Below, one piece after another: positions 548-27,562 of a stretch of 64,000 bases of DNA (position 1 is its first letter; every line of letters begins with the position of its first letter). The notes beneath the pieces are model-generated. The model was not told the DNA's origin, searched no databases, and saw nothing but the letters and a program-made list of their open reading frames with translations. Both the position numbers and the translations under genes were made by a program. Origin of the DNA: Mesaphorura yosii (Eukaryota > Arthropoda > Collembola > Poduromorpha > Tullbergiidae). The stretch covers positions 1 through 64,000 of the forward strand of contig WIXG01000249.1 of the NCBI GenBank assembly GCA_009869945.1, read 5' to 3'.

Positions 548-3500
548 GTGAGTAAATTCAAGCAGATTCTAACCCAGCCGGTTGCTGGTTTCGTTGACAG
601 TTACAGCTGTAAACTAGAATTCAATCTCACTCATTCCCTCGCGTGTGTCGTATATCAACAGGATTAATGAAGATGAGACACTGACACATGTTTAATTAGC
701 ATTACATTGTGGCCATGTCCATTCTCAAATTGCGTCCTAGATTTGAACTTTGCTTCTAGTTTCTGAATAGGTTGTATCGCATTACAGTATTTATTGTATT
801 TTGCTGGGCTTATTCTATACAAATGCTATCACTTGTGACTCTCTGATGCATTCCCTCCTTCGTTATTTGCTGTTTGCGGAGGGATAAATACGTGTATTGC
901 TCCATTCCTTTTCGCGAACGATGCTTATTTACATTGGTCTTGAAATGGAGATGCGCCTCACTCCAGTAATCAAATGCTATCGCGAAGTCTGCGCCATTAT
1001 GAGAATTCGTTTCCGAGTATAATTGTGTGGTCCACTTTACTGCGGCAGACGCCGCAGCTACTATTTCTTTGATTCATACAAGCCTATTATTATGAAGCAT
1101 GACGTCTAACCATTCATTTCTATTTAATTTCCAGCGCGCCACGAACAACAATCAACTTGGCTGTCTGGCCTTCGCCAGAGATAGACGTTGATCACGAATT
1201 GCAGGGGGTCGTAGAAAAATGTGGTCATCTTGGCTTTCCCGGAAGGTACGAAACTTTTCTCTCTCTACCAAAGTAAATTAGATTTTCTCGATTTTTCTAA
1301 CTTTGCGTAGAAGAAAAGAGGAAAGTGCCGCAGCACGGTTCAGTGAATCTCATTCGCAATTCGCAAAACGTGCCGACCGACGCGTGCACAAGTGAACAAG
1401 CACATAAGAATTGCGGGCGCATTTCTCCGACCCTGCATTTTGTTTTATTGTTTATTTTGACTCGGAGTATCTGTTGCTCATGTGCTCACTCCCTACAAAG
1501 AGATAATTTCTTTACAAAAGAGTTCAGTCTGCGGCGAAAAAGGAGAGACTATGTTATTCGGATGATGAGTTTCCCTTTCAAAACAATGGAAAAGTGCAAT
1601 ATGAAAAGATTCTCTGGAGAAAAGAATTAACTTTGAACAATTTGCGAATGCGCACCAGAGAAATAATAATATTATTATGATCACAAGAACCGCACTGGAG
1701 AGTTCTTGTCTTACTGCGTCTGCATCTGCGCTGCCCGGCCCGGTCCCACATAATTCACTTTGCAATTGCTATTACGTAAGCAATTGTTGAGTTGTTCATA
1801 CACACATACATTACATTAATTGTAATGAAAGCACAGGATGGAGACGAGCGCTTCGTTTTGTGCTGAAATAGTTGCCGACCTTGAGAAACAATGTTTGGTT
1901 TGGTAATATAACACACAAGTTCAACGCACTATTTATAGCTTCACGGTATCACCGTGCAGACTTGCCGACTTCGTAATGTACTGCATTATTACCATAATTT
2001 GGGTGTACGGAATGGATCGACTGTGTCCAGTATGTGGAGCAAATAAAGTAGATTGTGTGCAGAAAAGAAACTACGAAATCAAAATTGTCGTCGTTACGTG
2101 CTCCCGAATTATGGAAAGACTTTTGCTCCTCGTTTTTATATCAACTTTGCAACCAAGTCCAGAGCTTAAATTACAATTAAAGAGTATTCTGTGAGGTCTC
2201 TCTCCCGCCCACTTTTCTGGTAGAGCACGCTGACAAACAAGTTTCTCCGGATGTTGACTCCACCACTGGAGCTAATTCATCAAACATGTGTGCGGTTAAG
2301 AAGTGCTTTTCTTAGACCAAGATAATACCTAATTACCATATTCCATCCAGTAATTTCAGTAAGAATCATAATACACCACCTCACTATTATTCGCTGCTTA
2401 GCTAATCAAGGTGATGACTACATAGCACTACGAGCTTCCTTCCAATTTTGGAAAGGAAAACTTAACATTGAAGTTATATGCGAGTAAAAGGTCAACACTG
2501 CTGAATATGATATGTCCATGCGCTGAAACAAAGATTCTGTGTATCGTGTCTTCATTTAGCTGGGCGAAGACTCGTAGCTTCTGTTTAATTTTGATCTGCA
2601 TGAGAGATTTATTAGCCTACCTCATCATGCACATCAATTCTACAGAAAAGTAGTGTATCCTATTTTTGATTCGTGAGTCATGACATCATTTCTAACCTCA
2701 GTCGCCTGGACTACATCGAAGAAAATGAATCTAGCATTTCTGTGTAGTTGAACTCGTCTGAATCATTTTCCTAGTTCAATAACTCGAATCACCGCTAACG
2801 TCGCGAACGGTTCGGCTCGGTTTCCTAGTGGAAGTAGGACTTAAATGCCCAAGAAAGCCAAGAATTCATTGACCGCCCAAATTTTGACGGGGTATTTAAT
2901 TTATTGTGTCTGGTTTTATTTTGCTTTATCCGTTCTGTGTCCTGGCGAAAACTACGAAAACAACATTATCACATAAATTGAGATATCATTTGTCAACAAC
3001 GTCGCGGGCTATTTTTAAAAGCTCTTGCTCTGCTCTGACTGAATGAATGCCAAGAGCAAAGTGTATCCGGCGTCACGGCTGTGACTGTTGGCAAAAATAG
3101 AAACCTTTGATCCTGCTTTTATCCAAGGTTTTGATCCGGCTCCATCCGAGTACTTTCTTAAGAAATTGCGTTGTTTTTCACGGGTTTGCAAATCTAAGCC
3201 ATGCCCTTGCTTCTTTGGGTTTAGCGTTTGTTTTTGTTTAGATTTCAGGTCAAGTTGATCCTTACTCGAGAAGGTACTTGAATCGTGCCCGTAAAGCAAA
3301 ACAAACGAATAATTGCGTTATCGCTCTTGGCATTTTCACAAATTGTGGCGGTACATGTTTGTTATCCAACTACCACGAATTGGTCCTCGACGTCTCCTTG
3401 TTCAATTTAATTTATCGCCCAGACACTTTTTCGCAATTACTGGAATTCTTCGGGGCATCTCAAGTAGTCTCAACATTCTTGGGTCACGCCTTTGGCCTGT

Positions 3501-6500
3501 TCTTGCTATTGCTCGCCACTTCAATATTCAACAGCGCAACAAAGTTTCAACAAGTCCATCTAATACACGAAATAATGAACGCTACTCCACGTGTAGCATG
3601 TTGCACTTGAGATTCTTTGAGCTTCCAGTGGAGAGTGCGGTACAGAAAGCGTGGCGAAAACATGAAAAAGGTAGACCCGAAGCTGCAAGTTAAGATGTTC
3701 GCGCTGCTCTTTAAGAATTTATGCGGGAATAGTTCAAGTGTGAAGAGAGCTCGATCTCGATTTTGTCTTCATGTTACAAGCCAATGGCGAGGCTAGTTAA
3801 AGCATCCCATCACTATACTCACAGTTTCATTCATTCATTAACTTCACTTCTTCAAAACCCGGTACTAAAGGACCATGACTTGAGCCAAGAGTAAGTAGTA
3901 AGTAACACCATCCATTGAATGACGCAACTGCAAAGGCAACAACGCAGTTGACATGCAATGAATTATAGATTCGTTGGTATCAAATATAGCGTAGCTTGCT
4001 GTTGCTCACTGTGTCTGAATGTTGTAGCCACAGCTTGTCGTTGTCAATTAAAGCTTAATTTTGTTGGTGTGTAAATAAAAGAGGGTGAACATTGCTTTTC
4101 TACGTGAAAACATTTCGTAGTTGCACAGCCTTCGCAGCTTGGCGTTCATTTTGGCATGTCTAGCGCTCATTTCTCATTTACACCCTCCACAAAACATAAA
4201 CCATAAATACAGTTTATAGTTTATACGGGCTAGAAATAGTTTTCATCATTCTTATCAGGTCGTGACCAAAACCACAATCCACAATAATAATATTATGTTT
4301 ACTGTGGTACGAGCAACCAGTGATGTCTGGCAACGCTATTAAAACAACATGCACTTAGTAGAAGGTTACATTTTCTGAGACGACTTGCATGCCAAGGCAA
4401 AGACTGGGGTCAGGCAGCGAAGGTTTCCAGTTCCAATGCTTTACATTTGGCTTCTACACAGAGGAATTACAGAATGATTGCGTAACTCAATGATAATTAT
4501 TGTCTCAGAAATAAACTTGCCAAAAGGCTTAATGCTGGAGGAGTTCCTGCAGTCAATTCTGTTGTGCTTTTATTAACTCTCGCGAAATAGACGTGCTTCA
4601 CTGTCGCTACATGAATGAAGTGGTTACTCACGGTCTCGCCGCCTCGCCTTTTATGCTCTTTTTACTGCAAAAAGTGCCTGGTGTTCCAATGCCAGTCTTA
4701 ATCGCATAGCAAATGCCATTGCTTGCTGCCACTATTTTGCAGGCGGTTTAATATTTTATGGTCTTTTTATGACCAGCCGTTACATTCCTGTGCACAATGC
4801 AGCACTTTGACGTGATTTATGGGTTCATTCTTATAAACATAACCAGGAAATCGCAGTCCTCGTGCGAGTTGAATGCAAGCGGAATCCAGAGACAAGGAGC
4901 ACTGACAGTATTGAAGCATTGTTGTCATTTCTCCTTTCATCGCCCTGCTTTATGCTCCGCCGCTCATTATTCATGCTGACGGCTGACACATGAATGAATG
5001 GAATTCGCAAACCCAAGCCGCTTGGCGGTATCCATTGTTGTCTGCAGACACTAGACTCAATCTGCCTCTTTTTATGTTTAATTTGACATTTAATGAATGG
5101 ACTATGGACAGACTCAATAGATTCGAGATCTTATAGTATTCACCACAAATATTTCAAATCCACACCTTTAATTGGTCCACTCAGTCCCAAAATAATGTAT
5201 GAATGCCTAGTCGTTCATTGATTATCTAGTTAGTAATGAAACTCATAATGCTCATACTCTTTCAGCGCTTCCACTGCGCATGTATCCATAAATTGCAACT
5301 ATAAATAACGATTTTACTTATTTCGCCTACGTCACCTGCAGAAAAGCTAAATCCGGTGATTTATACCTGTGCTTAGTGTTGTAACCGCCAAGCCAAAGGT
5401 ATCTTATGAGCTTTAAGGAATAGAAATTGAAGTTGGAAGAAAGAAGAAGACGACGACTTTAGGTGTGCGTACAAACTCATGCTCATGCTCGCTTGAACCG
5501 AGAAACGAGAAACCCTCTAAAATGCTATTCCTGTGCCTCCACTTAATTTTCACCAGGCTTTGCAGATTTCAGGTGCATGCATACTTGTTTCACATTTGCT
5601 TTACTACTGGCATTCATTCTCATTGAAAGCATTCACGTGAGAGGTGAGTTATTTATGAATATGAATGTGGAGTAATTTATGCGAACGACGAAAGGAGAAA
5701 CACTGCGGGATATCAAAGTGAAAGTTACCTCGCACAGCTTGAAAAGTCCGAACAACTGTAAATAAACGTGAAGTGTAAACTGTAAAGTTTACGTACTGAA
5801 AATGATGTGCCGTGTTGTAGTTTAGCTTGAGGCTCATTAATTGTGATACGGCTTTCTTTGATGGAGCAAGATACACTGAAGTGGTATTACGTTGCTTTCG
5901 GGAGAGACTGGACTGCTGACTAATATCAACAGCAGTATTATGATGACGTTTTCTAATTTCCTTTCTCATTTCCTTCAAGCGTATCTAGTCAACGCGGCCA
6001 TGAAATTTATTGTGTCATAATTCGTGCTAATCTACACTGCCCAAATGTGGGACTTACAACATACATTTATGCCACGCGCTATTATAATTAGATTTCCGTG
6101 GTAATGACTATGGTACAAAAAGTAGATAAACTATGAACAGAGTGTGGACCACCCGTCCTAACATTCACCGCTTGGTACACTTTTAATTAGTGGCCACCTG
6201 CAGGTGATGGTAGCAGAGTCGACAAATGTGGGGCATTGTTACCCGTTGAGTTGTGTGGTTAAATAAAGCTTGTCCCTGGTGTTAGAGGAGATTTTTAGAT
6301 TTCAAGCTCCATTCACGAGTCTTCATTCGTTCGCTCACGCCAATTTGGGCTCGGTGGCATAACTTCCAATGCATACATGTGTCCTGTATTTACTATCTGC
6401 CTTTCACGTTTAATTTGAGAATATGTATCGGACAAATGAAGCATGCTTTCTCCTCATGGAACAATCTGTCTTCATTGACCGCGCCCAGTCCAAGAAGATG

Positions 6501-9500
6501 GATGTGTAATTAGGTTGATCACAATGTCATTGCTTGTTTGCTGAGCATATGCTTGCATCACATGCCAGGCGAATGCACACTGCATTTCTGATATATCCTT
6601 TGGTGTGTTCTTACTTTCTCGGCATTACCCTTGGAAAAATCTGTATGTCATGTTTTGTCTGCAAGAGGTTGGGGGGTTGAAGGTTACGTTCTCTTTTAAT
6701 TTCATCTGATTTCCCATGTCAATTATGTCCTCCAGAGGGCCAGTATCCTGGCATTGGCAATGACATGTCGTAAAAATTTCATTCCCTGGTGCCATCATGT
6801 CATTCAATCTCCTTTGGCAATTTCCTTCTATTTTTGTACAATTTGACATTAACATTGATCCTGTGGCGCGTGCCTTCATTAACTTTAGTGAGAAACACAA
6901 AGTGATGCCGGGCACTGTACATTGTGACAGTAAATGACAAATTGCATTCACATCACATGCTTAACAAGTTGGCTAGAAAATGTTGTTCGGTATCTCAATG
7001 ACAATAGACAAATTGAGACTCTGCTGCCATCTTCTCCATCTTTCTGTACGTTGGCAATGACGCATGTTACCCGACGACCTCACTCATATTCGATATAGCC
7101 AATAATTACATTTGCTTGGATTCCCATAATGCCGATTCTTTAGTTTGATTGATGGGAAAATGCTTATTGAAAAATGTCAAAACTCTTTGTGTACACAAGC
7201 TTACACTCATTAGAGGTCCACTCACCCATTAGAAAATGAACGTTTAGACGTCCGACTAGACTTGTCCTGTCATATCTATCGCATGCAGTATTATGCAAGC
7301 GACTGAATTCACAGCATTCATGTATGCGTACGTTGTTCGTAAGCTAAATATAAATCTGGAGAGAGTATTGCGAAAGTTTTCAAAAATAAAAACTTATACT
7401 CTCTTTATTCTTTATCATTCTTTATTTATTCTGCCTGACTTTGCGCAAAAGACGACGCTGCACATACTGGCCACAGTCTGTCGAGACTGCACAAGATGAG
7501 AACATGATACTTCGTCCTGTACGTGTACGTAAGTGTCTCACGGCCTAGGAGATCGAATAGACCAAACCTTCAAAGAAGGCAAGAAGGCAGACAAGAACAG
7601 CCAGGCTTGGGCTCAATTGCATCAAAGGGCGAAGGTTCGATAGATTATAAATGTACAACTAAATCTAGTTCTCAGCTTCTCTTGTAACTGGAAGCTTCTC
7701 AAATTACACAAGATTTAGAAAACTTTTGGCACTTATGAAGTTTCGCCTCAGCGTTAAGTTGAAGCGAACTTTCTCAGAATATCGGCGGGAAAAGCTAAAG
7801 AGACGACAAATAATTGCGCCGTTTTCCCAAAAGTCACGAAGAATGATAAAAAGAGCTTGTGTATCGAAATTCCAGTTCAAGTGAAAGAATCTGAAACGCA
7901 TTTGCGAAGCACTTATGAAGGTTAAGCACATGGCTTTGAAAATCTGCACGACCACAATTAAAGGTTAGAATTTTTATGGCCTTGAATCTTGAATTCTTTA
8001 AAAGACACGAAAAATGTAAAACTTAAGAGCTTTTATGAATGGTGTACTTTTTACGCACTTTATTCCGCCAAACATATACCGGGGATTTACTTTAATGTAG
8101 GATTGGGGATGTGTGCGCAAGATTCAAAGGGCAAGGGTAAAGGAATTTGAATTCAAATTCAAGGCATGGTTTAAATTATGAATTCAATAAACTTTTGAAG
8201 TTACGAGTCATGAATGTGTAACCTTGGCACGATAGGGCAGGGAATTAGAACAAATTCTTGGATAATGGTGAAGGCGACCGTGAAGTAGACATGGAGCATT
8301 TTGCATGGTAACATGTTGCCAAGATTGCCCGCTAATCTCTCTACCTTCCAATGAAGAAATTTTGAATAATAGCTGAGATGTCCGGCCTTATTCACTTCAC
8401 ATACTCGTGGGAAGTTGAAATTGAAAAATGAAAATCTTTTATGATATTCATTTACTATTTTTTTTTACGCAAGTGTCATCTTTATTCATCATCATCATCC
8501 TTCCTCTTCCATAAACATGGGGCATGGTGTGTTGGCTTTTATCTCGGTTATATGACTCGAACTCCGGGCGAGAACTGGACAAATACAAATAACATGGTAT
8601 GAGCATGACAACCTGAATTACATTTTTACATGCACAAGCCCGTAGAACCGAACGTTGGCTCAGGATATGGCGTATTTATTCCTGCCTTATTCATTTTGGG
8701 TCTCATGTCTAAGACGCAATTTATTCTTATCAAAATTAGGCCGCCCGGTTGAGTCGGATGGGCAGGAGCAGTTAGTAATAAGTTCCTATAACTGACTGCT
8801 ATAATGGTGTCTGTATGTCACGACCGCTTGAGATAGTTGACAGAAATAAAGTAAACGCTCATGACAGGCGGATTTCGCGTCGTACCTGATGCCAGGAATG
8901 CGTGAATCGAAGTAAGACAGCCGTCATTAATTGCTCCAAATGCCATTGGACAGATTTGTTGTGCTCCGCCTGGTCACTGTAAACATGTGAAAGTTCAGAT
9001 ACGAGGTCAACGGATTATCCATAGAATTAGTAGTTTGTTGGGTGAGCAAGAGAGTCTCAATGAGACGGAAAGATATGAAGCACAAAGTACATTGCGCACT
9101 GCAATTTTTCCGAGACGCAATTTATGCCTTCAGTGTGCATCTTCAAAAAATGATATGTTTATTTGGAAAGTACTGACAGCGCAAATACAACTTTGTCAAA
9201 GGAGTCGTAATAACGCCTAACGCGGTGACATCAAATCACAAAGCACGAATGAGTCTGGAGTGTCTTTTTGTGTTGTCTTGCGTGCGTGCGACATGCGGAA
9301 TGAAATATCAAAAGAATTCGCCTTTTTGCAAGACAGGGAGATAGAAACGCCAGAAAAGCACGGAACATGAGGTGAACGTACATCGCCAAGCACTTCTACA
9401 AGTTCGAGCATCGAATTTTGCGGGCAATTTTTCTCGAGGAAAGTGAAAGTTACTTCTTCATTCCATAACCCTCTCACATGGCAAAGCCCTGAATGGAGAG

Positions 9501-12500
9501 AAGAGAAAGCGGAGATCGAGTTGAGTTGACTATAAAGCACGAGTATAAAGTCACAGCAGGAACACGAAATGTGGAGAGGACGACGATCCGTGCAGTATGC
9601 CGTTGTGCATGTGCTATAGAGAAAATCAATGTAAATGCTTTCTTTCTTCGCGCTTTTGCTCCAGTTCGCCATATCCACTCGCTTTTCCTATTGGGTCGTT
9701 TGCGTGTTCGTTTGTATAAAATGAAAACTTGTTTCTCAGCCTCGGTAACGTTTATATTTACATGGAAAGCAGTTTCTGTGCCTGGTGCCACGTGCACCGC
9801 ATACATTTTGGGTCCAATTTTGCTCCTGGGTCCGACTCTTGAAGTGGGGCATTGTGGCTGTATTCTTCGTCGGGACATTTGAAGAATCTGAGACTTCTAT
9901 TTTTGGTGCTGTACCCAATAATTTGCGCGAGCTCCACTTCAATGAAAGAATCAAATAGCACTTACTTTGTGCCCGCTAGGGCAAACACTGGTACTTTATT
10001 GAATGCCTCAGCAAATACCGATTCGTCGAAATCGAAATCTGAAGGAGTAGTTTGTCATCTTAGGATTGAGAGAAGAATTAAGTATGAGGCACGTAATCTT
10101 TATCTTGTGTATTCAGGTACCCTTAACGCTTGCATGACTGTTGCATTCGAGTTTATGAAATCTTTGGGCGGATTGATCAAGCACGTACAAAGACACGTGG
10201 AGACATTTTCTAGTGAGATTGTGGTAGAGCAAATATTCTACTCAAGAATTGCGAACTAGTTTACACGAAGATTATTGCCTTGATTACCCACTTCATTCTC
10301 TAATCGTGTATTCACAGCGACTGCCCTTCCAAGAATGAGTGGGTTCAAAGTCAATGAATCAAGAATACTTAGTCTGGGGGCCACATAGACACGCTGCGCG
10401 AGAACGAACAACGTAAAAATGGTGAAAGATTTTGTGCTGCTCCAATAAGTATGTAAGCAGAATATTGAAATGCCTACTATGCTTATGTCAAGCTATTCAT
10501 CGGATTGCTGACAGTTGGTTTTTCCCGTCGGCAGCTCTCTTTGTCCAAACTTCTATGGCTTTCTCCATTGTACTTATACAGTTCTTCAGTCTATTCCTTG
10601 TCAGTCGCCGAATAAGGAGCACGCGACAAAGAGAAGGCAATATCTTTCGCCCATTCTTGGAATAAAGACTTTTTACAGTTGACATTATTAATGTTCTAGC
10701 TCAGCTCTAATAATTGCTTCGCCGCGCCAATATGTGCTAGTTGTAGAAGTTTAGCGTAAATGCGGCAGTTTGGACTAGTTAATCTACTAAATTCATAGAA
10801 CGACATGAACAAGTATATGCTCAAACAACATTCTAGACGTTATGATCATTCTGCTAATTAATGTCAGCCTAATTCATATTAATACTGAGTTTGCGTGGTC
10901 CAATGCCGTTACTGTTTGAAACATTTACACAATCCAAATTCCAAATCCTTAACGTTTTTTTAGTTCTTTTGAAGATTACATGCCTTAATGTCCAATGGAC
11001 CCAGATTGGCTACTAAGCTCGAAAGAATTGGAAATCGAAAGACAAGGTCTGAGGAGGGAAAAAAGAAGCAGAGAATTCTTTATTTTTGAGATATTCATTA
11101 TTCATTGCATAATCAATGAGGTTAATTGCATTTAATTACACTCAATACTCGTTTGACGACTCATAATTTCGATTCTTTCTCTGGTTTGTTTCACAAACAT
11201 GTAGTTTTGGTGTTCTTTATTATACTCGACGTTTATAATTACCCAAATATGTATTGATTTTATGAACTAGGAAAAGTTTTGCAAATTATTGAAAGCAGTC
11301 ATAAAACCACTTCATTCATGGGTGGCACAAACCAAGCCTACTCTTGAGCTCATTTGCATTTTAGTTTATTGCCACATAATTGGGAATATTTTGAGCGAGT
11401 TAAATGTCACTTCCTAACAGTTTGACAAGAAAAGCAAGTTCTTTCCTTTTTATGTTGATCGTACAAGTGTGATGATAAAATTTTAATGACTCAAACAAAC
11501 AAAAGGTCGACCATACCCATGATCACTTTGGATTCGCACTTCGAGTTCGCGTGCCGAAATACCAGCTACAAGATAAGAAAGGAATCGACTTCCTGCTATT
11601 CGTTCTGTTGAAAACTTGATATGCAAGATTATGGCTTTGCTGGCCAAGAAGATCTGACACAATGAAGAGTGCACGAGTGACTGACCTATCTTAATTACAT
11701 GCTTAGCATTTACAAACTTATTTTATTCGCAGGTTTGGATGGTTCATTCCGCAGTCCAGAATCACAAGAGACCACCCCGAAGTTGATTACTGGCGCACAT
11801 TCCAGCGAAATCAGCCATCACTCACTAGTCAGTTCAGCTTAAGCCGTGAAGATTGGGAAAATGTCACCAGATTATCAATTAATCCCGAAACCAAACAGCA
11901 CTTCTGCACGGATCCGAAAGTGTGCGAAAATGGGGTCTTCGAACCCGAGATTTGCAAGAGCCAGCAGAAAGAATTCGAATGTGCCGTGCTTCTGGCATCA
12001 TACCCAGAATCTTCTTCCTTTGTCACGTCCCAAATCAAATCACTCTCACTTTACGTTAAAGTCGTATGGATTGGCCAACATTTGGAATCCTTCGTTCGTC
12101 ATTTACAATCAAAGTACAACTCCAGCGGAGAGAAACACGCAGTGTTGTTTTTCTCCTGGAGACCAACCGTTTTGACTACAGAATTGGATCTAGTCAGTGT
12201 CAACTTCCCAGCTTGTAATAGTAAGAACGATACGCTCTGCAACTATGAATCTCAGAAAGTGGAGAAGATGGTCTGGAGCAAACTGGAAGAAGGTGCCAAA
12301 TTAGCTTTTGAAGTAAGTGTGAACTTCTACTGAGGGTGGTCGGACTTATTCCAGACAGCAAGGTTTTTCTTTCTATTTGATTCTACGCTGCGGGGCCTTC
12401 GATGGAGTAGCTGTAATAGTTCAGTGGCAGCCTAACATTACATAATTTAGTGCTTTTTGTCCCAACTGGACCGAAAATGAGTCGAAAATTGGGGTTGGAA

Positions 12501-15500
12501 GTTGACCAATTGGTGCGAGCGTATCCCAGAGATGGTCTGTCACTCAGCTATCGTAGCAAGGTTAAAATTGGAAGGAATCACCATCGGCAAATCAACAGTT
12601 GCAGACATCATCAATAGCGTCGGAAATCGAAGAAATCACAAGTTGACCGGTCTCGCATCACCAGAAAGACACAAGTCACACCACCACTAACAAAAGGACT
12701 AAGGTCCTCATCAGAAAGGTTGACCTTCTCACGTCAAGGGAGAACCCGCCCAGCCAACGACAAATTGCAATGGGCGCCTGGAAACTTCTGCAGGAGGTCT
12801 GGAACAATGTCACTCCACGAAGAAGTGTCTAAAGTGTATTATTCGTGGAAAAGGAGACCGTGCCTGGTTGCCCAGAAGGGTGATGGACATATTGAGCACA
12901 CCAAACAAATTCATAAACGAAAATTAAACTTGTAATATTATAAACAAAGCTGTCTGGAATAAGCCTGAATATCTTCTGTACAACATAAGTAGCCTCGTAC
13001 AGCTGGCTAATTTGATAACGAGAAACGAGCAGCATAAATAATTTTATGCACTCGTAAATAATAACCGTGAAAACTGTGTCCTTTTCGAGTGTGTTCAAGA
13101 CTTTGAAGGCAATCGAAAGCTAGAATTTCACAGTTTAAGAATTTTCTGACCTTTTAATTTTATGGCTTTTCGCTTGCCTGACACAAATAACGACATCAAG
13201 AATTCGTACTTATCACACATCCCGCAGACGGGGATCTGCCCCGTCTCGCCCTAATTTTACATTATTTGCTGGTTACAGGCTGTTCATAGATTCTCACTTA
13301 CACAAGATGAATACGTTAACTTCCTGAAACTATACACGAACAAAACTACCGGAACTGCATTCAGAAATTCTCATGAATCGTACGAGTACGTCGCTTGCGA
13401 ATGGATGAAGACGAACAAAGGGGTGTGGAAGGGCTGGAAGCCAATGGCTGGAGTGAATAGACTCCATATCGGAGGCATCTTCCCAATTTCTGGAACTTAC
13501 ACCGCCAGAGGAGTTGTGACTGGTACGTGAGGCGTTAATATGTAATCGATACTAGTGCCAAAGATGGAACTTAGTTCCACAAATGGCATGCAAATAATTT
13601 GAACTTCTTCGAATTCCATTCTCATACTTATAATTCTCTTCTCGTTGTTTCTCAATTTCGCAGCTGCAACCATGGCGGAGGAAGCCGTGAATATGAATGA
13701 GAGCATCCTGAGTGGGTACGAGCTGAATCTGCTGGTTAGTGATGGGCAATGCCGAACTGATGCTGTGATGAAAAGTTTCATAGACTACATTAGGACTTCA
13801 ACATTTGACACCATGGCTGGTATTCTCGGTATGCACCACTTTTGTTTCGTCTGTCCAGCCCAAGCATAATGCGCAGGGGTTTGTACATTTTTGTGAACTT
13901 GGTTATTTTAGGACCGGCCTGCTCGGACACGGTAGAACCTTTGGCCGGTGTTGCAAAGCACTTCAAGACGGTCGTGATCAGCTACAGTGCGGAAGGATCA
14001 AGCTACTCAGACCGAGAACAATATCCGTATTTCTTCCGGACTATTGGAGAAAACAAGCAATTCCAGTAAGTAGCCGCCGTGAACGATTTTCCACTAATTC
14101 GATTTGCGAATAGGAATAACACGCAGACTTGTTCCCATCTAGGCATGTGTACCTGAAACTATTCCAAGAGCTTGGGTGGAGTCGAATTGCTTCTTTGACC
14201 GAGGAAGGGCAGAAATATGCTGAATACATAAGCCATTTGCACGACTTACTACAGGAAAATGGAATGACTTTCATCGCTAGTCGCAAATTTCCTCGTGAAA
14301 GGCCCGCACTAAACATGTCACAGGTTGGCCGTCCACACAGTTTTTTTCTGAAAGAGTCCCAATGTAACTTCAGCTGATGAGATTGTTTTCTCTGAACATT
14401 TCAGTACCTTCAAGATCTCAGAGATAAGAGAGCAAGAATTATACTTGGTGATTTTTACGATCACACCGCACGAGCTGTAATGTGTGAATCCTACCGACAA
14501 AAGATGACTGCGAAAGAGGGCTACGTGTGGTTCTTGCCAGTCTGGTTTAATCCGGTAAGTGTAGTTTAATCAATCAAATGTAATCAATTCGTACCAATCT
14601 TTAAGTGGTAAGTGCATAATAAGTGGCAAATGAACGAGGCAAACTATTATTTCAACTGAATTAGCGCAGCGAAGTTAAAAATTTTTTTACAAACATTTTG
14701 TTACAATTTAGTACAAACAATTTCTTCAATGACCGACGACGGTTACATTGAACGGAACGCTGAACTTCAACTTCAAAACCTCTGCACGTTTTTTAAATTT
14801 TTTCGTTTTCAACCAGAAGGAATTTTTTTAGTAGTTTCTGTGGTATCCATTTAAACTTCAAAACCGTTTCAATCATCATTGACATTATTCTCATAGGATT
14901 GGTACGACACTGACAAGTATAACAACATAAGTGGGAAGGAGCCCACTCCTTGCAAGACTTGGGAAATGGTCCAGGTGAGTCGACTCGACACTCTGACGTC
15001 TTTCGTATAATCGTATCTGGTATTGATCTCCTGGAGAAAGTCTAATAATCTTGTGCAATGCTTTGTCATTTAGGCGATTAACGGCCACTTATCACTCCAG
15101 TACGCATATTACGCCCCAGACGATCACATTATGCAGGAGAATAGAACAGTCGGAGAATGGAGGGCCGACTACGAGAAAAAATGCAAGGAAAGTAATCGAA
15201 CGACATCAGATTATGCAGGGTACGCGTACGATGCAGTCTGGACATACGCGTATGCCCTTGATAAACTACTCAGACTGAATCAGTCACACATTACCAACTT
15301 GCACTCTGATAATATAACTGAGTAAGGAACCGATCAATTCTGTTGAAAGCGAAGTTTATTTTCTTCCAAAAATATCTAATATGCTTCCATTCACTTTTTC
15401 ATCGTCTAGAACATTTGTGCAAATAATCAATGAAACGGATTTCTACGGAGTAAGTGGCCATATTAAGGTTGGTTCCTCTTTGTTTTCTTTCTTTATTCTG

Positions 15501-18500
15501 CTCGCTTAATAGTGACATAAGGTGAACACGGAAGAAAGGATAAGTTAGAATTTAGGCTACCAATTTTAAGAATTAACAGTTTTGTTAACGTACATAGAAG
15601 TTACTAGAAGTTAACATATATATCTACATGGTAAATTGAATGCAATCTTTCTCCTCACAATGCATTTTCACATAATATATTCTTCCGCTTTCGTTGTGGG
15701 TTTTGCTACAGGAACCGTTAATATCATCGTAACACGAAAGAGGAATATCTCGCTGAGCCAAAACTTTTGCATCATGTCGTGCTGCCTGCACGAATGGCAA
15801 CTCTTTCGCATCTGTCATTGATACAAACCCATTGCATATAATTTGTGCTCCTTGGATGCTTGTTACGCCATTTCCCGAACAGCTAAAACAAAATTAGGTA
15901 TTAGTTATAAGTAATGACAAATGTCACTAATTCGAATAGGATGCACAATAATACCTGAAACCAAGCTTCCTCTTGCTCCATTGATTCTAAGCTTGGATGA
16001 ACATGTTTAGCTATCTCGAATGCAACCTTTTCACCATTGATGCATGCATCAACAATAGCACTCCCATTCCCATTTCGTCTCTACGTGCGTGGTCCTTTTG
16101 AAATATTTTCTAATATCAGGGAGTGCACTACTTGAAGATGCACGCTCCAACAATTGTTAATTGAAATAGCTGATCTCAACAATAGCAGCTATGATACAAT
16201 TTTAATTATAACACTAAAATGAACTGTACTGATAGAGTTTTTTGTCTACGATTTTGAACCAGCATTGTGAAGAACGAGACCAGAAATATTTTGTCACTTT
16301 TCAACACAAATACATACAACTTGGTACTCAAAAATGTACATTATCTGCATTTGACAAGCACTTGATAATATAAATGCTATTGCTATACGCCTGCTTTCTT
16401 GAAGAAACTGAATCTAATTATATTCATCATTTTCCCTCTCCACAGTTTATCGGAGGACCTTCTCGAGTTTCAACAATCCACGTTGTTCAATGGATTGAGA
16501 GAAAGACGATAATAGTGGGTTCGTTTCAACCAGTCACAAGAAATATGTCAAATGATATTATTGGTGGAAGGTAGGCGTAAATCAAATAAAGACGGGCCTG
16601 CACTTGTGTAAAAACAGTAAGAAATATTTTCTATTTGACAGGCTGGATTTAAATATCTCGGCGATTGTGTGGTTAAACCAAGACAATTCGATACCATCGG
16701 ATGGGTCGGAGCCACCTGCGACATGCGTTCTAGAAACACTCGCTAGCGCGCTGGATGTATCGTGTGAGGCTGCGATTGTCATAGCCAACGTCATTGGGTT
16801 TGGGGTTTTTGGATGTATTCTCGTTGTCTGCTTCATCATAATCAAAAGAAGGTGCTTACAAACTCTTTCTGAAAGCCTTTTATCGCATTGAAGTCTTAAG
16901 TGTAATGCGTCCATCTTTTCCAGATATGATAAACACATACAAACAACTGAGGACTACTTCAAGGCGTTGGGAATTGATATTCTGTCGGCCACAAGTGTTT
17001 CCGCACTTGATAAATGGGAAATTCCAAGAGATCGAGTTGTAAGTGATCATTTTAAGTTATTTATTAAAGCACTTTACTTTTGGTTTAACGGTTTGACTCG
17101 TGTAACAAGAGTAAGAGAAGTAAGAAGTAATGACTTTTAGTAAGAAAACACACTTACTAGAAAACAAAGTAGTTGATGCTCGAACGAAAAGTGAACGTGT
17201 TAGTCACGCCTGAATTCACCTGGGTCTTTCTTGTTTGCAATAAACGCCTTAATTTGTTCAGGGGGTAGATTTGCTATCCGTTTGCAGTTTTGTTCGCAAC
17301 TGTTGAATTTTGATGGTTTTGGAAACGAATGTTCAATTGTTTGTAGAACCCACATGACACGAGAAAGTCCCTTCTTCTTGACACTGCACAATGCAACAAA
17401 TACGCGATTTCACTGCCACGATTTGCACAAGTGAACCGTTTTTGAAGAATGATTTTCTTCTTTCCACCAAATTCAACAGATGAGGAAGCAGTCACGACGT
17501 GCCGGAATTGGCAATTTCCACCACGGCACCAAAAGGTTCCGGGTCCCACATGTCCATATCTTGCGTTTTGATTGATTAGACGGACTATACCTTAGAATTA
17601 AGAAATAATGAATTATCAATTAACAAGTCATTAGCGCATGTCAGTTATATTATTATTAGCGCATATTGTCAGTTAGTATAAACTAAATATTAGACTTACC
17701 ATCTCCGCTGATAGTGTTTGGGCAATAAAGTTCCGGCTCCACACCACTGTCAGGCCACTGTGAATAGGGAAGGAGATCGTCGTTGAACTTTGTCGCTTCA
17801 ATGGTTGTGACTCCGGATCCGACGGTTCTTTTCAGCAAGATTTTCTTAATGTCGCAGGAATAAATTCTTCTAAGGATCTTGTCAACTGACTTATACCGTG
17901 TGCTGTCACCATAAATAGATACTGTGAACTGCTTCGTGTTGCTTTCCATGTTCCTCTTGAACTGTTCAAGCGCTCGTCTCTCCGTTGCAGAGAATGCAGC
18001 CTTTGATTTTGCTGCTTCCGTAGTGAATGCATCAGGGACGTGGCGCTTCCAAGCTATAAAGCCAATACGTGACAGATTATTCAGTAAATTCTCAAACTGC
18101 AAACTATATAATTTAATTTCGATGCAATAACTTACGCAAAGAAGTTTCTTCAAAAATGGGATCTCCTGTAACATCACTTCATTGTCATACTGAGCTTAGT
18201 TTCGGATCACAACTCGTACTTGAAGTCAAATCGGCTTTATTGATTTCAGTCTTGACATTCGCCCGTTCTGGAATTCTAACAAGCTGAATTGCTCTCAAAA
18301 CTTCTTCAGATATAGAATCACGGCTAATCACAACACAATTACAGTTTGTACTTGTTTTCGCAATTTCTTGATTGCTGGTCTCGGTGTTGAAGGCAGAGAG
18401 TCTTCAATCACTACTATATCAAGTTCAACTTGTGCGATTTCCCTCTTCTGAGATTTGCTTCTGCTACTTGAATCTTTGTTCGGAATTGGTGTCTCGTCCT

Positions 18501-21325
18501 CGAATTCAAGATGGAATTATGCAAGTGATTTCGTTGTTGTTGCCATGTTTTAGCAGTAATTGTATTATTTCTGCAAAAATGGCCAATTAAAAGTTTGATT
18601 TGCGAAATAAATTGAAAATTAATAATTGCAGCAACAATTTGTTTATAAGCAAACAAACAAGTTTGAACAAGCTTTCAATCAAACAAACAATTCAATTGCA
18701 AACGCTGCTCGCGTCAGCCAATCAGTGCTCAGCATTTTAAACTATTATTTATTTTGTTATTTAGGTCATAAATCGGAAACTTGGCGAGGGCGCATTTGGA
18801 ACCGGTATTTTGTTTTATTATGCTCATTAAAAGTAACACTTCTAACACATGCTTTGCTTTCAACAGTTTACGGTGGTGAATGCTTCTTTGACGATAAAGG
18901 ATGGGTCGCTGTGGCTGTCAAAACGCTGAAAGTAGGCTCCACTTGTGAGCAGAAGTTGGACTTCTTGAGTGAGGCCGAAGTCATGAAGAGATTCGAGCAC
19001 AAGAATATCATAAAGCTTCTTGGCGTTTGTACACGATCTGAACCGATTTACACCATAATGGAGTTTTGTCTCTACGGTCAGTTGAGCGAATAATTTAATC
19101 CGTCAGAAAATGATCAATTCATCGTCTAAGGGAAATCGATGCATTTTCCCACAGGCGATCTCAAAACATATTTGCTGGCCAGAAGAAATCTGGTTAACGA
19201 GAACGAAGACTCTGATGAAATTTCAAGCAAGCGTCTGACTTCCATGACTTTGGGTAAGTTATTTCAAATAACCGTTAAAGGTGGAAGTAAATGGGTAGCT
19301 AGTGAAATAAATAACAGGGTAGTAAGAGTTCAAATAACGGATAATGGTTTTTAAATGGTACTTGAACAGAGTAACCACATTGCTTGAAACGTATCTTCTC
19401 CAAGCTGTCATACAAACAATTACTTATTCATTCATGCATCTTACGCAATCAAGTCTGGTAATTCTAGGTCTGAATGCATAATCCTTACCTTCTGCTTCAT
19501 TAACAAAAATCACTTTCGCCAGTATCTTTATGAAATTGCCATGCTGTTGATAATTTCTCTCTTCTTTTAACGTCGACATCATCAGCTTTCTCTTTGTTCT
19601 TACCTGGAGACATTTGAGACTTCATAAAATCCAAGACTTCCTTGCGTTGTGGAGAAAGCAGCAGTTTGAATGGCTCTATTACACCCTGCGATGTGCGATG
19701 ACCAGCTGCTTCTGTTTGAGATTGTGTGTTTGTCAACTTCTTTTTTTTTGGGATTACATCTTCTTCGTCACTCGAAATGGTGACAATGTCTACTTTCTTT
19801 GACATTTTACAGTAATGTGAAAGTATTCAAGGCCAAATGAAATTCAAAACACCTAAAATTCCTGTTTGTTTATTATTCGTAAGTACAAGCAAGTTTGAAG
19901 AAAGTTGAAAGCGACATTAAATTAGAAGTTAAAAACGAGTTGGAATATGTTTGTGTTTTGTTTGCTACTTTGTTAATTTCATAAAAACAAACAATCCAAA
20001 ACGCCAGCCAATCAGCAACTTCCAAATTGCATTTTAATTGGTACCAATACTGATAAAAGCTTTCCTTCCCACCTACTGAGATAGTTCCTAGTCATGATAT
20101 CATAATTAATCGTTATCATATTTTTCAGATCTTGCACGTGCACTTTCCTACCTTGCGGAGCTTAAATATGTTCACAGGTATGTCATGTCACATGGAAATA
20201 TATGAAGGTTTGTTGTAAACTTGTCATTGAAACCCATCCTTGGAATTTGCAGAGATGTGGCATGCAGAAACTGTCTAGTCAATGCAAGTCGTGTGGTCAA
20301 GTTGGGTGACTTTGGAATGACTCGCCCGATGTACGAAAACGACTACTACCGATTCAACAGAAAAGGTATTACAGAGAAGCATAAAGTAGTTACTTGAGGA
20401 ATGTGTTTACAATTCCGTCCTTGACTTTTAGGCATGCTTCCAGTAAGGTGGATGGCACCCGAATCTCTGGAGTTAGGAATCTTCACTCCAATGTCTGATG
20501 TTTACTCATTTGGTGTTGTACTTTATGAGGTACAACATTTTTCGCTACATGTTTAACGTGCTGGTGGCTTTTATCCAAATATGAAATTACGAATGTTACA
20601 GATTATCACTTTTGGAAGCTTTCCATTCCAAGGCCTGAGCAACAACCAAGTTTTGGAGCATGTCAAGGCTGGAAATCAACTCCCTATTCCTCGTGGAGTT
20701 CAGCCACAACTGTAAATTGCCGAATGTCATGCTTCATGGTCGTTTCAAATCGCTATTGCAAGTTTTAAATTAATTTTAGGGAAGCTTTGCTGAGATCATG
20801 CTACGCCATGGAATCAGCACGTCGTCCAGCGGCATCTGAAATTGTGGAGTTCCTGGCCAATGTATGTAATAAGTCGTATTTACTTACCCTTTCACATTTA
20901 TTACTCAAGGAATATGTAAATTTGAACAAAACAAGTATGTTCATGTGTTGTGTTGCACGATGTGTAACACATAGTAGTAGTAATGTTCGGCGCAGTTTAA
21001 AGACTTGAGAAGCACTAACTCTTCTTTTTTCTCATTCCAGAACCCGAGAATTATTTCACCCTGTCTTGATATTCCACTCGCTTCAGTCCAGATGGAGGGC
21101 ACTGATCAACTTGAGATTTCAATCCCGAAGAAGCCGAATAGTACTACAACAAATCGTCTCAATAGCAGTAAGAATATACGCCAGTGTTCATCGAAACTTA
21201 GCAGTTTTGAAACTCAGCCACAAGAAACGATTCCACTAACTCAGCAAACGAATCAAAACAATACCAGTCCATATGCTACTCTGCAGCACAATAGTCACAG
21301 TAACAGTGTTGATCAGTTCGCTTAA
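464..21325 (+). CDS. Vkr: Venus kinase receptor (receptor tyrosine kinase with Venus flytrap ectodomain)
   Basis: This is a single-pass receptor kinase of the plasma membrane; in other invertebrates VKRs bind small molecules or peptides and act in reproduction. Exons by splice sites: 464-547 (uncertain), 1135-1245, 11733-12312, 13279-13522, 13664-13828, 13912-14065, 14143-14323, 14405-14554, 14897-14974, 15074-15321, 15410-15467, 16446-16570, 16642-16851, 16924-17038, 18765-18804, 18867-19076, 19155-19253, 20129-20177, 20253-20365, 20432-20529, 20602-20711, 20780-20861, 21041-21325. Every junction keeps phase, giving about 1195 residues. Order: OpuAC-like region, ANF-type flytrap (from [13 protein letters not shown] to [10 protein letters not shown]), one TM helix, tyrosine kinase, 95-residue polar tail. 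Kinase marks are GEGAFGTVYGGE, VAVKTLK, HRDVACRN, DFGMTR and RWMAPESLE. The insulin-receptor-like kinase joined to a flytrap rules out an ordinary GABA-B receptor or insulin receptor. The signal peptide was not found, so the true start is missing or lies upstream. Confidence 0.9.
1135..1245 (+). CDS. Vkr: VKR exon: start of the OpuAC-like ectodomain
   Basis: The exon has an acceptor (TTTCCAG) ending at 1134 and a GTACG donor at 1246. The frame reads [12 protein letters not shown] and ends GHLGFPGR. It leaves two bases completing an arginine codon with the first base of the exon at 11733, which continues FGWFIPQSR. The joined G-x-P-G-R-x-G-W-F-x-P pattern is typical of betaine-binding-like domains in animal flytrap receptors (family knowledge). 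The 10.5 kb gap to the next exon is therefore a single intron. Confidence 0.75.
1246..11732 (+). other. 10.5 kb intron of the VKR gene
   Basis: The stretch is bounded by a GTACG donor at 1246 and an acceptor (TTCGCAG) ending at 11732, and joins two halves of one domain in phase. It is AT-rich, and its open frames of 60-153 codons overlap on both strands without recognisable motifs, so I read none as genes. First large introns in receptor genes often carry enhancers; nothing here proves that. Confidence 0.65.
11733..13474 (+). other. OpuAC-like (glycine-betaine-binding-protein-like) part of the VKR ectodomain
   Basis: This region covers exon 11733-12312 and most of exon 13279-13522, together with the earlier exon at 1135. 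Seen in sequence: [42 protein letters not shown] and W-K-G-W-K-P, with paired cysteines and N-glycosylation motifs (NVT, NSS, NDT, NKT). The pattern of an aromatic wall, a V-x-F-F-x-W-x-P strand and a late W-x-x-W resembles ABC-transporter substrate-binding (OpuAC) domains fused to some animal flytrap receptors. The assignment is by remembered pattern, not by a profile search; the alternative is a VKR-specific N-terminal region of other origin. Confidence 0.55.
12341..12967 (+). mobile_element. Mariner/Tc1-like transposon relic with terminal inverted repeats
   Basis: The element lies in the VKR intron 12313-13278. Left end 12341-12359 and right end 12949-12967 are inverted copies matching at 17 of 19 bases (core CTTATTCCAGACAGC). 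Between them lies a helix-turn-helix transposase remnant on the + strand: it begins near 12478 ([17 protein letters not shown]), then after a frameshift reads [10 protein letters not shown] and [10 protein letters not shown]. Another frame near 12710-12760 reads [19 protein letters not shown], like the second HTH of mariner-type enzymes. At about 630 bp, with frameshifts and no catalytic domain, it is a dead internally deleted copy. I could not see a clean TA target duplication. Confidence 0.7.
13475..15467 (+). other. ANF-receptor / GABA-B-like Venus flytrap module of VKR
   Basis: Eight exons from 13279-13522 (its last part) to 15410-15467 encode a type-1 periplasmic-binding fold. It begins [15 protein letters not shown] and continues with [70 protein letters not shown] and [14 protein letters not shown], ending [10 protein letters not shown]. 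These follow the order of ligand-binding domains of GABA-B and natriuretic peptide receptors. Exon 16446-16570 continues with FIGGPSRVS and IHVVQWIE, as in those families. In VKRs this module is the ligand sensor. Confidence 0.85.
15624..16160 (-). pseudogene. Minus-strand spliced coding remnant inside a VKR intron (CX4C motifs)
   Basis: On the minus strand an exon ends at 15955 with a GTATT donor, followed by a 72 bp intron (15954-15883, acceptor TTTTAG) and an exon from 15882 to a stop at 15624. Coding text includes [32 protein letters not shown] and, after a frameshift, [15 protein letters not shown]. The two C-x4-C units resemble those of the remnant at 17200-18546. The frame must change at least twice, so it looks broken. 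It could be a decayed nested gene or transposon; FLYWCH-type fingers share the C-x4-C spacing, but I cannot claim that family. Confidence 0.4.
16642..16851 (+). other. VKR transmembrane segment exon
   Basis: Two cysteines ([10 protein letters not shown] and LDVSCEAAI) precede a hydrophobic run of about 24 residues from [20 protein letters not shown] to the basic stop-transfer IIIKRR. It is the only strong membrane span in the protein, which separates this gene from seven-pass GABA-B receptors. The next exon (16924-17038) encodes the juxtamembrane stretch ending KWEIPRDRV, immediately before the kinase glycine loop. Confidence 0.85.
17200..18546 (-). pseudogene. Nested minus-strand spliced gene or gene relic within a VKR intron
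   Basis: Unrecognised family. Minus-strand parts: a 5' segment from an ATG at 18546 to about 18183 (one in-frame stop near the start, one frame change); exon 18165-18136; a 39 bp intron; exon 18096-17700; a 109 bp intron with GTAAGT donor and AAG acceptor; exon 17590-17200. The last junction keeps phase, reading across as CPNTISGDG then [12 protein letters not shown], so this is not a retrocopy. Visible features are an acidic/hydrophobic patch ([10 protein letters not shown]), a basic helical middle ([19 protein letters not shown]), and a C-x4-C unit in [16 protein letters not shown] one-base frameshift near 17390 separates the last 60 codons. It sits between VKR exons 17038 and 18765, in the opposite direction. 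Confidence 0.45.
18715..18725 (-). promoter_or_regulatory. CCAAT-box candidate shared by two minus-strand ORFs (copy 1)
   Basis: The 11 bases CAGCCAATCAG here recur exactly at 20005-20015. Both lie 170-200 bases upstream of a minus-strand ATG, each with AAACAAAC-type and AAGTTTGAA words between. On the minus strand this reads CTGATTGGCTG, a classical inverted CCAAT (Y-box) element. Confidence 0.3.
19500..19802 (-). CDS. Intact 101-residue minus-strand ORF in a VKR intron, paralog-like to the nested gene at 17.2-18.5 kb
   Basis: The product starts [16 protein letters not shown], a hydrophobic core followed by acidic residues like a SUMO-interacting motif, then a basic cluster (IPKKKK) and a lysine/glutamate-rich end. 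This order mirrors the 5' part of the minus-strand remnant at 18546 (DIVVIEDS followed by KKLRK). Both share an upstream block of similar words and the same 11-base CCAAT-box sequence (20005-20015 and 18715-18725). No finger-type region follows, so it may be a truncated duplicate. Function unknown; a nuclear role is a guess from composition. Confidence 0.35.
   Translation of the reverse strand, partial: SKKVDIVTISSDEEDVIPKKKKLTNTQSQTEAAGHRTSQGVIEPFKLLLSPQRKEVLDFMKSQMSPGKNKEKADDVDVKRREKLSTAWQFHKDTGESDFC
20005..20015 (-). promoter_or_regulatory. CCAAT-box candidate shared by two minus-strand ORFs (copy 2)
   Basis: Identical to 18715-18725 and placed about 200 bases upstream of the minus-strand ATG at 19802. 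The shared flanking words suggest a duplicated promoter region rather than chance. Confidence 0.3.
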
Positions 21326-22262: not shown

Positions 22263-22357
22263 TCACAGAGCAGTGAAATAACTACAAAGCGTCGAAATTC
22301 CAGTGGCAACTTCTGAAGAGCCAATGCAAATCGGAAGTTGAACTGCAACCGAAAATC

Positions 22358-22933
22358 ATGTCGCAATCCCCTTCACAACTGCAATACACAATCAATAAAA
22401 CCTGGGACGATCAACCGGCTCCAGATAGCACCGAAGTCACTATAATATTCAACAAATCAGACACCAACGACGATAGTTTTGTGGTTCAAGTCGAAGCGCC
22501 ATTTTACGATGATCCAAAACTTCCTTCAAACACGCCGCCTGGGAGAGTGGACGGGCTCTGGGACTACGAAGTAGTGGAAATATTCTTTCTTGGATCCGGC
22601 GACAGATACTTGGAAATCGAATTGGGACCACGTGGGCATTATTTGGTGTATTACTTGGAAGGAGTTAAGAATGTTACGAAGAACGACATGAAACTGGAGT
22701 ACTTCAAAGCGGAAATTAGCGACGAAGGGCGCAGGTGGAAGGGCGAAGCCAAAATTCCCATGTCATATTTACCACCTCAAGTCAGCAAATTCAACGCGTA
22801 CGCTATTCATAGTTCTGGGACACAACGAGTCTATTTGGCGTTGTTTCCAGTTGCACCGGGAGAATACGAGCAGCCGGATTTCCACCGACTGGGACCGTTT
22901 GGTGATATTGATATGCTCGGAATACGTGCTTAA
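22358..22933 (+). CDS. UPF0462 / C4orf33-family protein, cytosolic form
   Basis: A single-exon gene of 191 residues, close to the length of the human C4orf33 product. Family hallmarks: WDDQPAPDSTEV near the N-terminus, APFYDDP, GLWDYEVVEIFFLG, YLEIELGPRGHYLVYYLEG, KFNAYAIH, YLALFPV and a final PDFHRLGPF. The fold resembles a beta-sandwich carbohydrate-binding module, but the molecular role of the family is unknown. No signal peptide is present, so it should act in the cytosol. The absence of introns contrasts with the three-exon paralog at 23704-24611; it could derive from a retrocopy or from intron loss. An AATAAA at 22978 follows the stop. Confidence 0.88.
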   Translation: MSQSPSQLQYTINKTWDDQPAPDSTEVTIIFNKSDTNDDSFVVQVEAPFYDDPKLPSNTPPGRVDGLWDYEVVEIFFLGSGDRYLEIELGPRGHYLVYYLEGVKNVTKNDMKLEYFKAEISDEGRRWKGEAKIPMSYLPPQVSKFNAYAIHSSGTQRVYLALFPVAPGEYEQPDFHRLGPFGDIDMLGIRA

Positions 22934-23703: not shown

Positions 23704-24611
23704 ATGGACAGCCGAAATACGCGCTTAGTGTTTCTTGTTCTGCTGGGACTTCAACTTAGCAATTCATTGTGAGTTCTCAGTTCTGACGACATTAAACTAA
23801 TTAGATGGTGCACAAAAATTCGCCCATAAATTCTGCTTATCTGCACAAATCACAGGTCACTGCCAAGTAAGTCTTCTGCAACGGCAAGCCATGAGTACAA
23901 GATAACAAAGACGTGGGATAGTAGAGATCACCCAGACGGAGCGGTGATCACAGTACAATTTTTGCCGGCTGAAGCTGCTTTGAGGGAAGAAGGCTTCATT
24001 TTACATGTCGAGGCTCCATTCTACGACGATCCTCGACTACCTGAAGGCACTGATTCAGGTATAATCTCGATACAGTCTCACAGTCATAGTAAAAACTCTT
24101 GAACGAGACTCAAAATGTAATCTTTACAGGGCGATACGACGAGCTCTGGAATTTTGAGGTCATCGAAGTCTTCCTTTTAGGGGACAATGAGACGTACCTG
24201 GAGATTGAAGTTGCTCCAAGTGGAAACTTCCTCGTCTACTACTTGGAAGGAATCCGGAACGTCACAGAAACAGACTTAGAAATTGAGTATGAGGCAACTA
24301 TATCAGAGAATGGTGACCGTTGGGAGGGTGTAGCGTTTGTTCCATGGGATTATCTCCCACCTGGCTTCGGAAAGTTCAACGCTTACGCCATCCATAAGTC
24401 CGACCCCGACAGGATCTACATGTCCCTGTTCCCCGTCCCTGAGGGTTCCGCCGAAGTGCCAAATTACCATAACCTAGAACCTTTTCAAAAGATTGATTTG
24501 TCTGATTTGCAAGAGCCAGACGAAACAACAACCACCCAAGGAAGTGGTTCGCTCTTTGGAAGCCTAATCGTAATTATGGCTCTGTGTTCATTCTCGTTGT
24601 TCTCACGCTGA
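23704..24611 (+). CDS. UPF0462 / C4orf33-family protein, secreted and probably GPI-anchored form
   Basis: Three exons: 23704-23768, 23856-24058 and 24130-24611; 249 residues with all junctions in phase. The first exon encodes a signal peptide (MDSRNTRLVFLVLLGLQLS). The core matches its neighbour: KTWDSRDHPDGAV, EAPFYDDPRLP, ELWNFEVIEVFLLG, YLEIEVAPSGNFLVYYLEG, KFNAYAIH, SLFPVPEG. After the core come a Thr/Gly/Ser-rich spacer (DETTTTQGSGS) and a hydrophobic end (FGSLIVIMALCSFSLFSR), the usual layout of a GPI-attachment signal, though a C-terminal membrane anchor is also possible. NVT sequons fit passage through the secretory route. Compared with 22358-22933 the family domain is kept but the location changes. 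Confidence 0.87.
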
Positions 24612-25206: not shown

Positions 25207-27303
<2,097 letters not shown>

Positions 27304-27361
27304 TTTAAGACTTCAATTCTTTGTGAATACATTTGTTCTATTTGAAAGTTTGCCAGAATCA

Positions 27362-27367
27362 AATAAA
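27362..27367 (+). terminator. Poly(A) signal of KRR1
   Basis: AATAAA 59 bases after the KRR1 stop. Confidence 0.6.
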
Positions 27368-27562
27368 CCTGATCTGTTTTATAGTTAGAAGTTGTAAATG
27401 CGCGGCAGTCATTTTGCTCGATTCACCGTTTACATTCCATCTCACGAAGAGTTCGTGTTACGTTAATCTCGCGTCGGTTTAACTTCTTAATTCTTAGGCC
27501 ATGTAATTAATCTTTGCGCTTCTATTCTTTCCAGAGAAGGTTGAAAGCTTCAACCAGTCAAG

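Follow-up and report, generated by a model that had tools for sequence, protein, structure and literature searches.

The opening 64,000 bases of contig WIXG01000249.1 (C249; hereafter the window) in the assembly of the collembolan Mesaphorura yosii (GCA_009869945.1; 93 Mb, 1127 contigs) carry a gene that encodes a Venus kinase receptor (VKR). The receptor very probably has a two-module ectodomain, in which a type II domain of the OpuAC/ProX type precedes the type I Venus flytrap and is followed by one transmembrane helix and an insulin-receptor-like tyrosine kinase. An initial annotation, made from the DNA letters, had placed an OpuAC-like region of this kind ahead of an ANF flytrap, and both lie in the same exon chain. 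The OpuAC-type identity comes from tblastn and from a profile of bacterial relatives, not from the Pfam family PF04069.

Assembly of the exons from GT-AG sites and matching phase gave 22 on the + strand (Table 1), and all 21 introns are GT-AG. A single open frame of 1167 whole residues plus a partial first codon runs through the chain, closes with TAA at 21325 and includes the exons at 1135-1245, 11733-12312 and 13279 onward that the initial annotation had read as one gene. The flytrap and kinase were called as firm features and proved so. ANF_receptor (PF01094) matches residues 311-673 (E 3.7e-50), with GABA-B1 as the nearest PDB relative (E 1.2e-44, alignment from residue 292), and PK_Tyr_Ser-Thr (PF07714) matches residues 807-1071 (E 2.5e-83), where the catalytic motifs are present. 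The top five hydropathy windows, the five considered, all fall inside 741-765, marking a transmembrane helix between flytrap and kinase. Among the best 60 of 582 PDB matches to the kinase, Schistosoma mansoni VKR2 (7zvs) came second (E 3.4e-74), followed by the insulin receptor (5.8e-72) and the IGF1 receptor; a 678-residue EGFR entry outscored 7zvs (E 1.1e-78), but no single stretch of it passed the threshold. The flytrap motifs given in the accessible text of PMC3703292 are found as GPACS at 367-371 (Ser371), FRTIGEN at 408 and GYVWFLPVW at 517, in a comparison that covered the Ser, the Arg and GY(V/I)WFLPxW. The gene is a VKR, sharing with SmVKR1/2, AmVKR, AgVKR, AaVKR and SgVKR the ANF/GABA-B-type flytrap with its binding Ser, the single transmembrane helix and the insulin-receptor-like kinase with the checked motifs.

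The N-terminal region of about 285 residues is, on sequence comparison, almost certainly homologous to OpuAC/ProX-type (type II) substrate-binding proteins. A tblastn search of 72,556 plasmids (7.3 billion bases) matched 18 records, led by Nonomuraea (E 1e-7, residues 25-285), with Pseudohalocynthiibacter second in E-value (7e-5). Genes are named at seven of the 18 sites, and all seven are ATP-binding cassette (ABC) transporter substrate-binding proteins; another seven sites have no listed gene, in a table that is incomplete, and four are in unannotated records. Seven loci were inspected, of which two have no listed genes nearby and five have neighbours. Four of these five adjoin ABC-transporter genes, two of them named as members of the betaine/proline/choline family. 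The fifth, an archaeal locus with the weakest match (E 5), has no such neighbours and looks like chance.

A bacterial profile was made from four plasmid-derived proteins, aligned without the VKR, and from relatives fetched from prokaryote genomes, of which the best 80 of 516 were used; all seven relatives tested are PF04069 proteins (E 5e-33 to 3e-53). The profile scores 75.2 bits against the 285 VKR residues (E 2.7e-19 per million sequences). The match consists of two colinear pieces, residues 22-62 (16.0 bits) and 126-283 (57.1 bits). The best of 2000 shuffled sequences reached 9.1 bits (1432 were reported), while the reversed sequence, the kinase and the ANF domain gave -1.4, -2.1 and -2.2. 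Of the 2848 segments in a six-frame scan of the window, exon 2 (E 2.1e-11) and exon 3 (E 0.012) alone stood out; the next segment had an E-value of 0.94. The closest bacteria among the relatives are two Chloroflexota proteins (L083 and L082). Single gapped blastp alignments pair VKR residues 5-285 with residues 50-285 of L083 and of L082 at 24-25% identity, and global alignment with the two proteins gives 29% identity over aligned columns. Cys198 and Cys206 sit in columns that are Cys in 80/80 bacteria.

The ligand pocket appears to be kept in part. In the accessible text of PMC8918994, the TmoX pocket comprises Trp55, Trp102, Phe106, Glu131, Trp177, Phe220 and Trp222, and the 4xz6 sequence has all seven at these positions. 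Two of three MAFFT modes pair Trp102, Phe220 and Trp222 with VKR Trp11, Phe177 and Trp179; the Trp11 column is W in 80/80 bacteria, and the equivalent of Trp55 falls in the truncated 5' part of the gene. Alignment with E. coli ProX gives Trp65, Trp140 and Trp188, which we take to be the ProX cage positions, the same VKR partners (Trp65 pairs with Trp11), so that two cage positions are conserved, with Ser130 at the third. The VKR domain thus has in common with OpuAC/ProX/TmoX/DmpX-type proteins (PF04069) the profile homology, the colinear motif order, the Cys pair, the strand-3 Trp and the Trp of F-x-W-x-P. Unlike these free binding proteins, it is part of an animal receptor and has two insertions (63-89 and 97-114), which are without counterpart in most of the 80 bacteria and hold or adjoin four of the eight domain Cys. 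It also lacks one cage aromatic and the Glu that bonds trimethylamine N-oxide (TMAO). Structure prediction, which the initial annotation had called for, was made for exon 2; with 42 bacterial rows supplied, AlphaFold2 returned a mean predicted local distance difference test score (pLDDT) of 74.8 and a predicted template modelling score (pTM) of 0.69, with strand-helix-strand-helix-strand order at exon positions 84-141. As the alignment rows come from the bacterial family itself, this model indicates compatibility with the fold and is not proof of it.

Several results weigh against a second substrate-binding domain. PF04069, the match expected by the initial annotation ahead of PF01094, did not match residues 1-285 in Pfam at E<=1, nor anything in the genome at E<=10 in a profile search that found matches in 8 of 14 control genomes. 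NCBIfam gave no match for the N-terminal region, and phmmer against PDB placed two nanobody sequences first and a glycine-betaine/proline-type binding protein (7yle) third, at E 1. The bacterial profile leaves residues 63-125 unaligned, exon 1 alone gives no match in the six-frame profile scan, and the domain as read is incomplete, with about 45 residues absent at the 5' end. AlphaFold2 on exon 2 alone was poor (pLDDT 41.9, pTM 0.27). In the pocket, the two MAFFT modes cited above place Glu15, Phe38 and Ser130 at Phe106, Glu131 and Trp177 of TmoX, and the third mode sets Trp11 on Trp55, the first cage Trp, not the second. The Ser130 column is aromatic (Tyr, Trp or Phe) in 80/80 bacteria; that of the TMAO-bonding Glu131 has Ile in 54 of these bacteria and Glu in the other 26. 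With Ser130 at the conserved aromatic site and Phe38 in place of the Glu, classical betaine or TMAO binding by the N-terminal domain appears doubtful, and an altered ligand or a protein-docking use seems more likely. The silence of Pfam and NCBIfam would also fit a resemblance due to chance or composition, but the gap between the profile score and the best shuffle, the colinear pieces, the kept Cys pair and a tblastn E-value of 1e-7 in a search space of that size make this a negligible prospect.

The two ectodomain modules meet in exon 3, a single open stretch of which the first 53 or so residues are OpuAC-type (profile match to 283) and the last 21 or so are ANF (GABA-B1 alignment from 292), the spacing between them being about eight residues. 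Because exon 3 codes for parts of both, their union is not an artefact of genes joined at this exon. It could still be supposed that the OpuAC-type exons and the kinase exons come from separate genes or transcripts, since an intron of 10.5 kb lies between the first two exons and the gene model is drawn from DNA. This is very improbable, as OpuAC-type end and flytrap start share one frame in exon 3 and phases agree at all junctions; at the long intron the phase fits (AG/G) and the blastp alignments run through the junction.

The 5' end of the gene is truncated: the first exon present is entered in phase 2, and the contig starts at base 1 of the window. From this entry phase, and from the pairing of VKR residue 5 with bacterial residue 50, the signal peptide and about 45 domain residues, the first cage Trp included, appear to be missing. 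The DFG motif is at residue 958 here and at 1031 in AmVKR (accessible text of PMC2680970), and the difference of 73 is close to the length expected to be absent. A missing 5' exon was not found in the window with the bacterial profile on six-frame translation, nor in the genome with one bacterial query, an empty result that proves little. An earlier placing of exon 1 as the first domain strand, with an internal gap of about 50 residues, was dropped; it is still preferred by one MAFFT mode, whereas the blastp alignment to L083/L082 over residues 5-285 puts the exon at the third strand. When intron 1 was searched for phase-2/2 exons, 25 candidates emerged, none convincing by eye. With exon 1 as the third strand the gap sits at the 5' end, and no internal exon need be missing.

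In a 39-row tree the VKR domain stands beside Chloroflexota proteins, with support 87/92; its branch, of 3.6 changes per column, was flagged by the program as long and odd in composition. The relatives found are bacterial, the search space being PDB, collections of prokaryotes, plasmids and viruses, and this genome; viral contigs gave no match. Among 24 loci of the genome itself (about 1.5 kb flank each, some being pieces of this gene), profile E-values below 0.3 occurred only in the VKR. The only extra genome match for the domain (L012, C242:419-622, E 0.06) is inside a hydrophobic open reading frame (ORF), and no kinase or flytrap was seen in the 2.1 kb examined there. The bacterial relatives and the lack of a further OpuAC-like domain seen in this genome would suit a recent, lineage-confined capture of a bacterial gene that became fused to an ordinary VKR. 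Such an event is improbable, since introns interrupt the domain, one of its exons also encodes part of the flytrap, and it has diverged to the extent given by its identity and branch length, and since the stretch ahead of the flytrap in other VKRs is of suitable size.

The hydrophobic ORF on C242 is 170 residues long, lies beside another hydrophobic ORF of 262 residues and by eye resembles a multi-helix chemoreceptor. A second full VKR was not seen in the genome: with 57 of 288 candidates scored, none of the 61 matches off this contig (28-59% identity) joined flytrap and kinase. In the same set, about 60 more tyrosine-kinase-like stretches (for example on C604, C610, C653, C387, C37 and C539; L016-L024) show 28-59% identity to the VKR kinase. 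Many are in long stop-free frames, mostly on high-numbered contigs, and could represent an intron-poor kinase expansion or a second organism in the assembly. Two ANF-receptor matches (L002 and L004, C69:205021-211715) share a strand and are separated by about 5 kb; they contain stops, as intron-bearing genes would, and are a possible tandem pair.

The initial annotation considered the extra domain unusual among VKRs. In their accessible parts, seven papers (PMC3703292, PMC2680970, PMC4026697, PMC5601475, PMC6401105, PMC4038586, PMC4522560) do name a single flytrap, and to that extent the contrast holds; published residue numbers, including Asp1031 of AmVKR, leave room for the domain elsewhere. 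The flytrap Ser is residue 505 in Anopheles AgVKR (PMC6401105), where a mutagenic primer covers the motif LGPAC.ETVEP that is also present here at the flytrap Ser, and it is residue 466 in SmVKR1 and 410 in SmVKR2 (PMC4038586). Here it is residue 371, lying 79 residues past the first flytrap strand and corresponding to flytrap residue 66 in the numbering of PMC3703292. By this Ser numbering about 330-440 residues precede the flytrap in AgVKR, SmVKR1 and SmVKR2, enough for an OpuAC-type domain. Table 2 of PMC3703292 has an entry on the start of the flytrap for 38 genes, and in 36 of them it begins at exon 2 or later. These numbers suggest that the N-terminal domain has gone unrecognised in the published VKRs rather than being lacking, and its presence in most VKRs, perhaps as a family trait, is rather likely. 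A description of an OpuAC-type domain in a VKR was not found in a literature search that covered few subscription papers, and database annotation may exist. Class C G protein-coupled receptors of the fungus Allomyces are reported to have OpuAC domains in the N-terminal part (PMC3251606, accessible text), a precedent for use of this domain in a receptor. They differ from the present gene in having seven transmembrane segments and no kinase, and Pfam detected PF04069 in them.

If the domain is functional, the receptor may sense two ligands, as the initial annotation had proposed. The N-terminal domain would be a second sensing or docking module, closely coupled to the flytrap. The flytrap itself would bind an amino acid, L-Arg-like judging from the kept Ser, through which L-Arg activates several VKRs (PMC6401105, PMC4038586, accessible text). 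For the N-terminal domain, the ligand could be a small cation distinct from betaine and TMAO, or a protein, for example a neuroparsin, docking on the Cys-rich insertions. AmVKR dimerises at the cell surface (PMC2680970, accessible text), and closing or occupation of the N-terminal domain could, through the short linker, shift the geometry of the flytrap dimer and so alter trans-phosphorylation of the kinases. For a direct role of the domain in the ligand response the chances may be about even. The main alternative is that it is a degenerate binding protein serving folding, spacing or dimerisation, with only the ANF flytrap sensing ligand. The change of a cage aromatic to Ser130, the absence of the hydrogen-bonding Glu and the 45 residues inserted ahead of the Ser130 region would suit a structural role, as would the finding, in the accessible text of PMC6401105 and PMC4038586, that AgVKR and the SmVKRs lose their activation by L-Arg wholly or in large part when the flytrap Ser is mutated. 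Trp11, Phe177, Trp179 and the Cys pair, however, are all kept. OEH activates the mosquito VKR and Ser-less cestode VKRs are reported to be unresponsive to amino acids (PMC4522560, accessible text), which makes another binding site plausible. On this evidence a purely structural domain is unlikely.

Table 1. Exons of the Venus kinase receptor gene in the window, with the protein parts they encode.
Feature	Position	Strand	Encoded part	Basis
Exon 1 (first present)	1135..1245	+	Residues 1-37; third strand of the OpuAC-type domain (INLAVWPS...), Trp11	Splice phase, open frame, gapped blastp
Exon 2	11733..12312	+	Residues 37-230; bulk of the OpuAC-type domain; Cys198, Cys206, Phe177, Trp179; insertions 63-89, 97-114	Bacterial profile
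Exon 3 (bridging)	13279..13522	+	Residues 231-312; end of the OpuAC-type domain (~residue 283, base ~13437), then first ANF strand	Profile, GABA-B1 alignment
Exons 4-11	13664..16570	+	ANF/GABA-B-type Venus flytrap, including Ser371	PF01094, GABA-B1, motif positions
Exon 12	16642..16851	+	End of ectodomain and single transmembrane helix (residues ~741-765)	Hydropathy maximum 2.77
Exon 13	16924..17038	+	Juxtamembrane segment	Open frame, GT-AG
Exons 14-21	18765..20861	+	Insulin-receptor-like tyrosine kinase	PF07714, PDB matches, motifs
Exon 22	21041..21325	+	C-terminal tail and stop	Open frame to TAA

Downstream of the receptor, an apparent tandem pair on the + strand (22277-22933 and 23830-24611) encodes similar proteins with the motifs VEAPFYDDP.LP and LW..EV.E.F.LG, and may belong to the C4orf33/UPF0462 family. 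Three further + strand ORFs at 26887-28821 (138, 203 and 199 residues) may be one gene; LPSVSKIL in the last of them is reminiscent of a mitochondrial exonuclease.

The receptor described here would combine type I and type II binding-protein folds in one receptor tyrosine kinase, a pairing that is to our knowledge unusual. According to the accessible text of PMC6401105, PMC5601475 and PMC4522560, egg formation depends on VKRs in schistosomes and Aedes, but in Anopheles coluzzii and the locust fecundity does not. There is no agreement on what VKRs bind: reports name L-Arg, calcium and OEH, a hormone of 86 residues, and a 2015 review supposes that one flytrap binds both amino acids and a large peptide (PMC4522560, accessible text). 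A second binding-protein domain offers a concrete, testable alternative to a single flytrap that takes both kinds of ligand. We tentatively suggest that most or all VKRs, from cnidarians to insects and schistosomes, could be tandem type II and type I flytraps in which the N-terminal domain is the site for a second ligand, whether neuroparsin/OEH, a male factor or an osmolyte-like cation. If so, a double flytrap throughout the family would explain why L-Arg, calcium and peptides have variously been reported as ligands.
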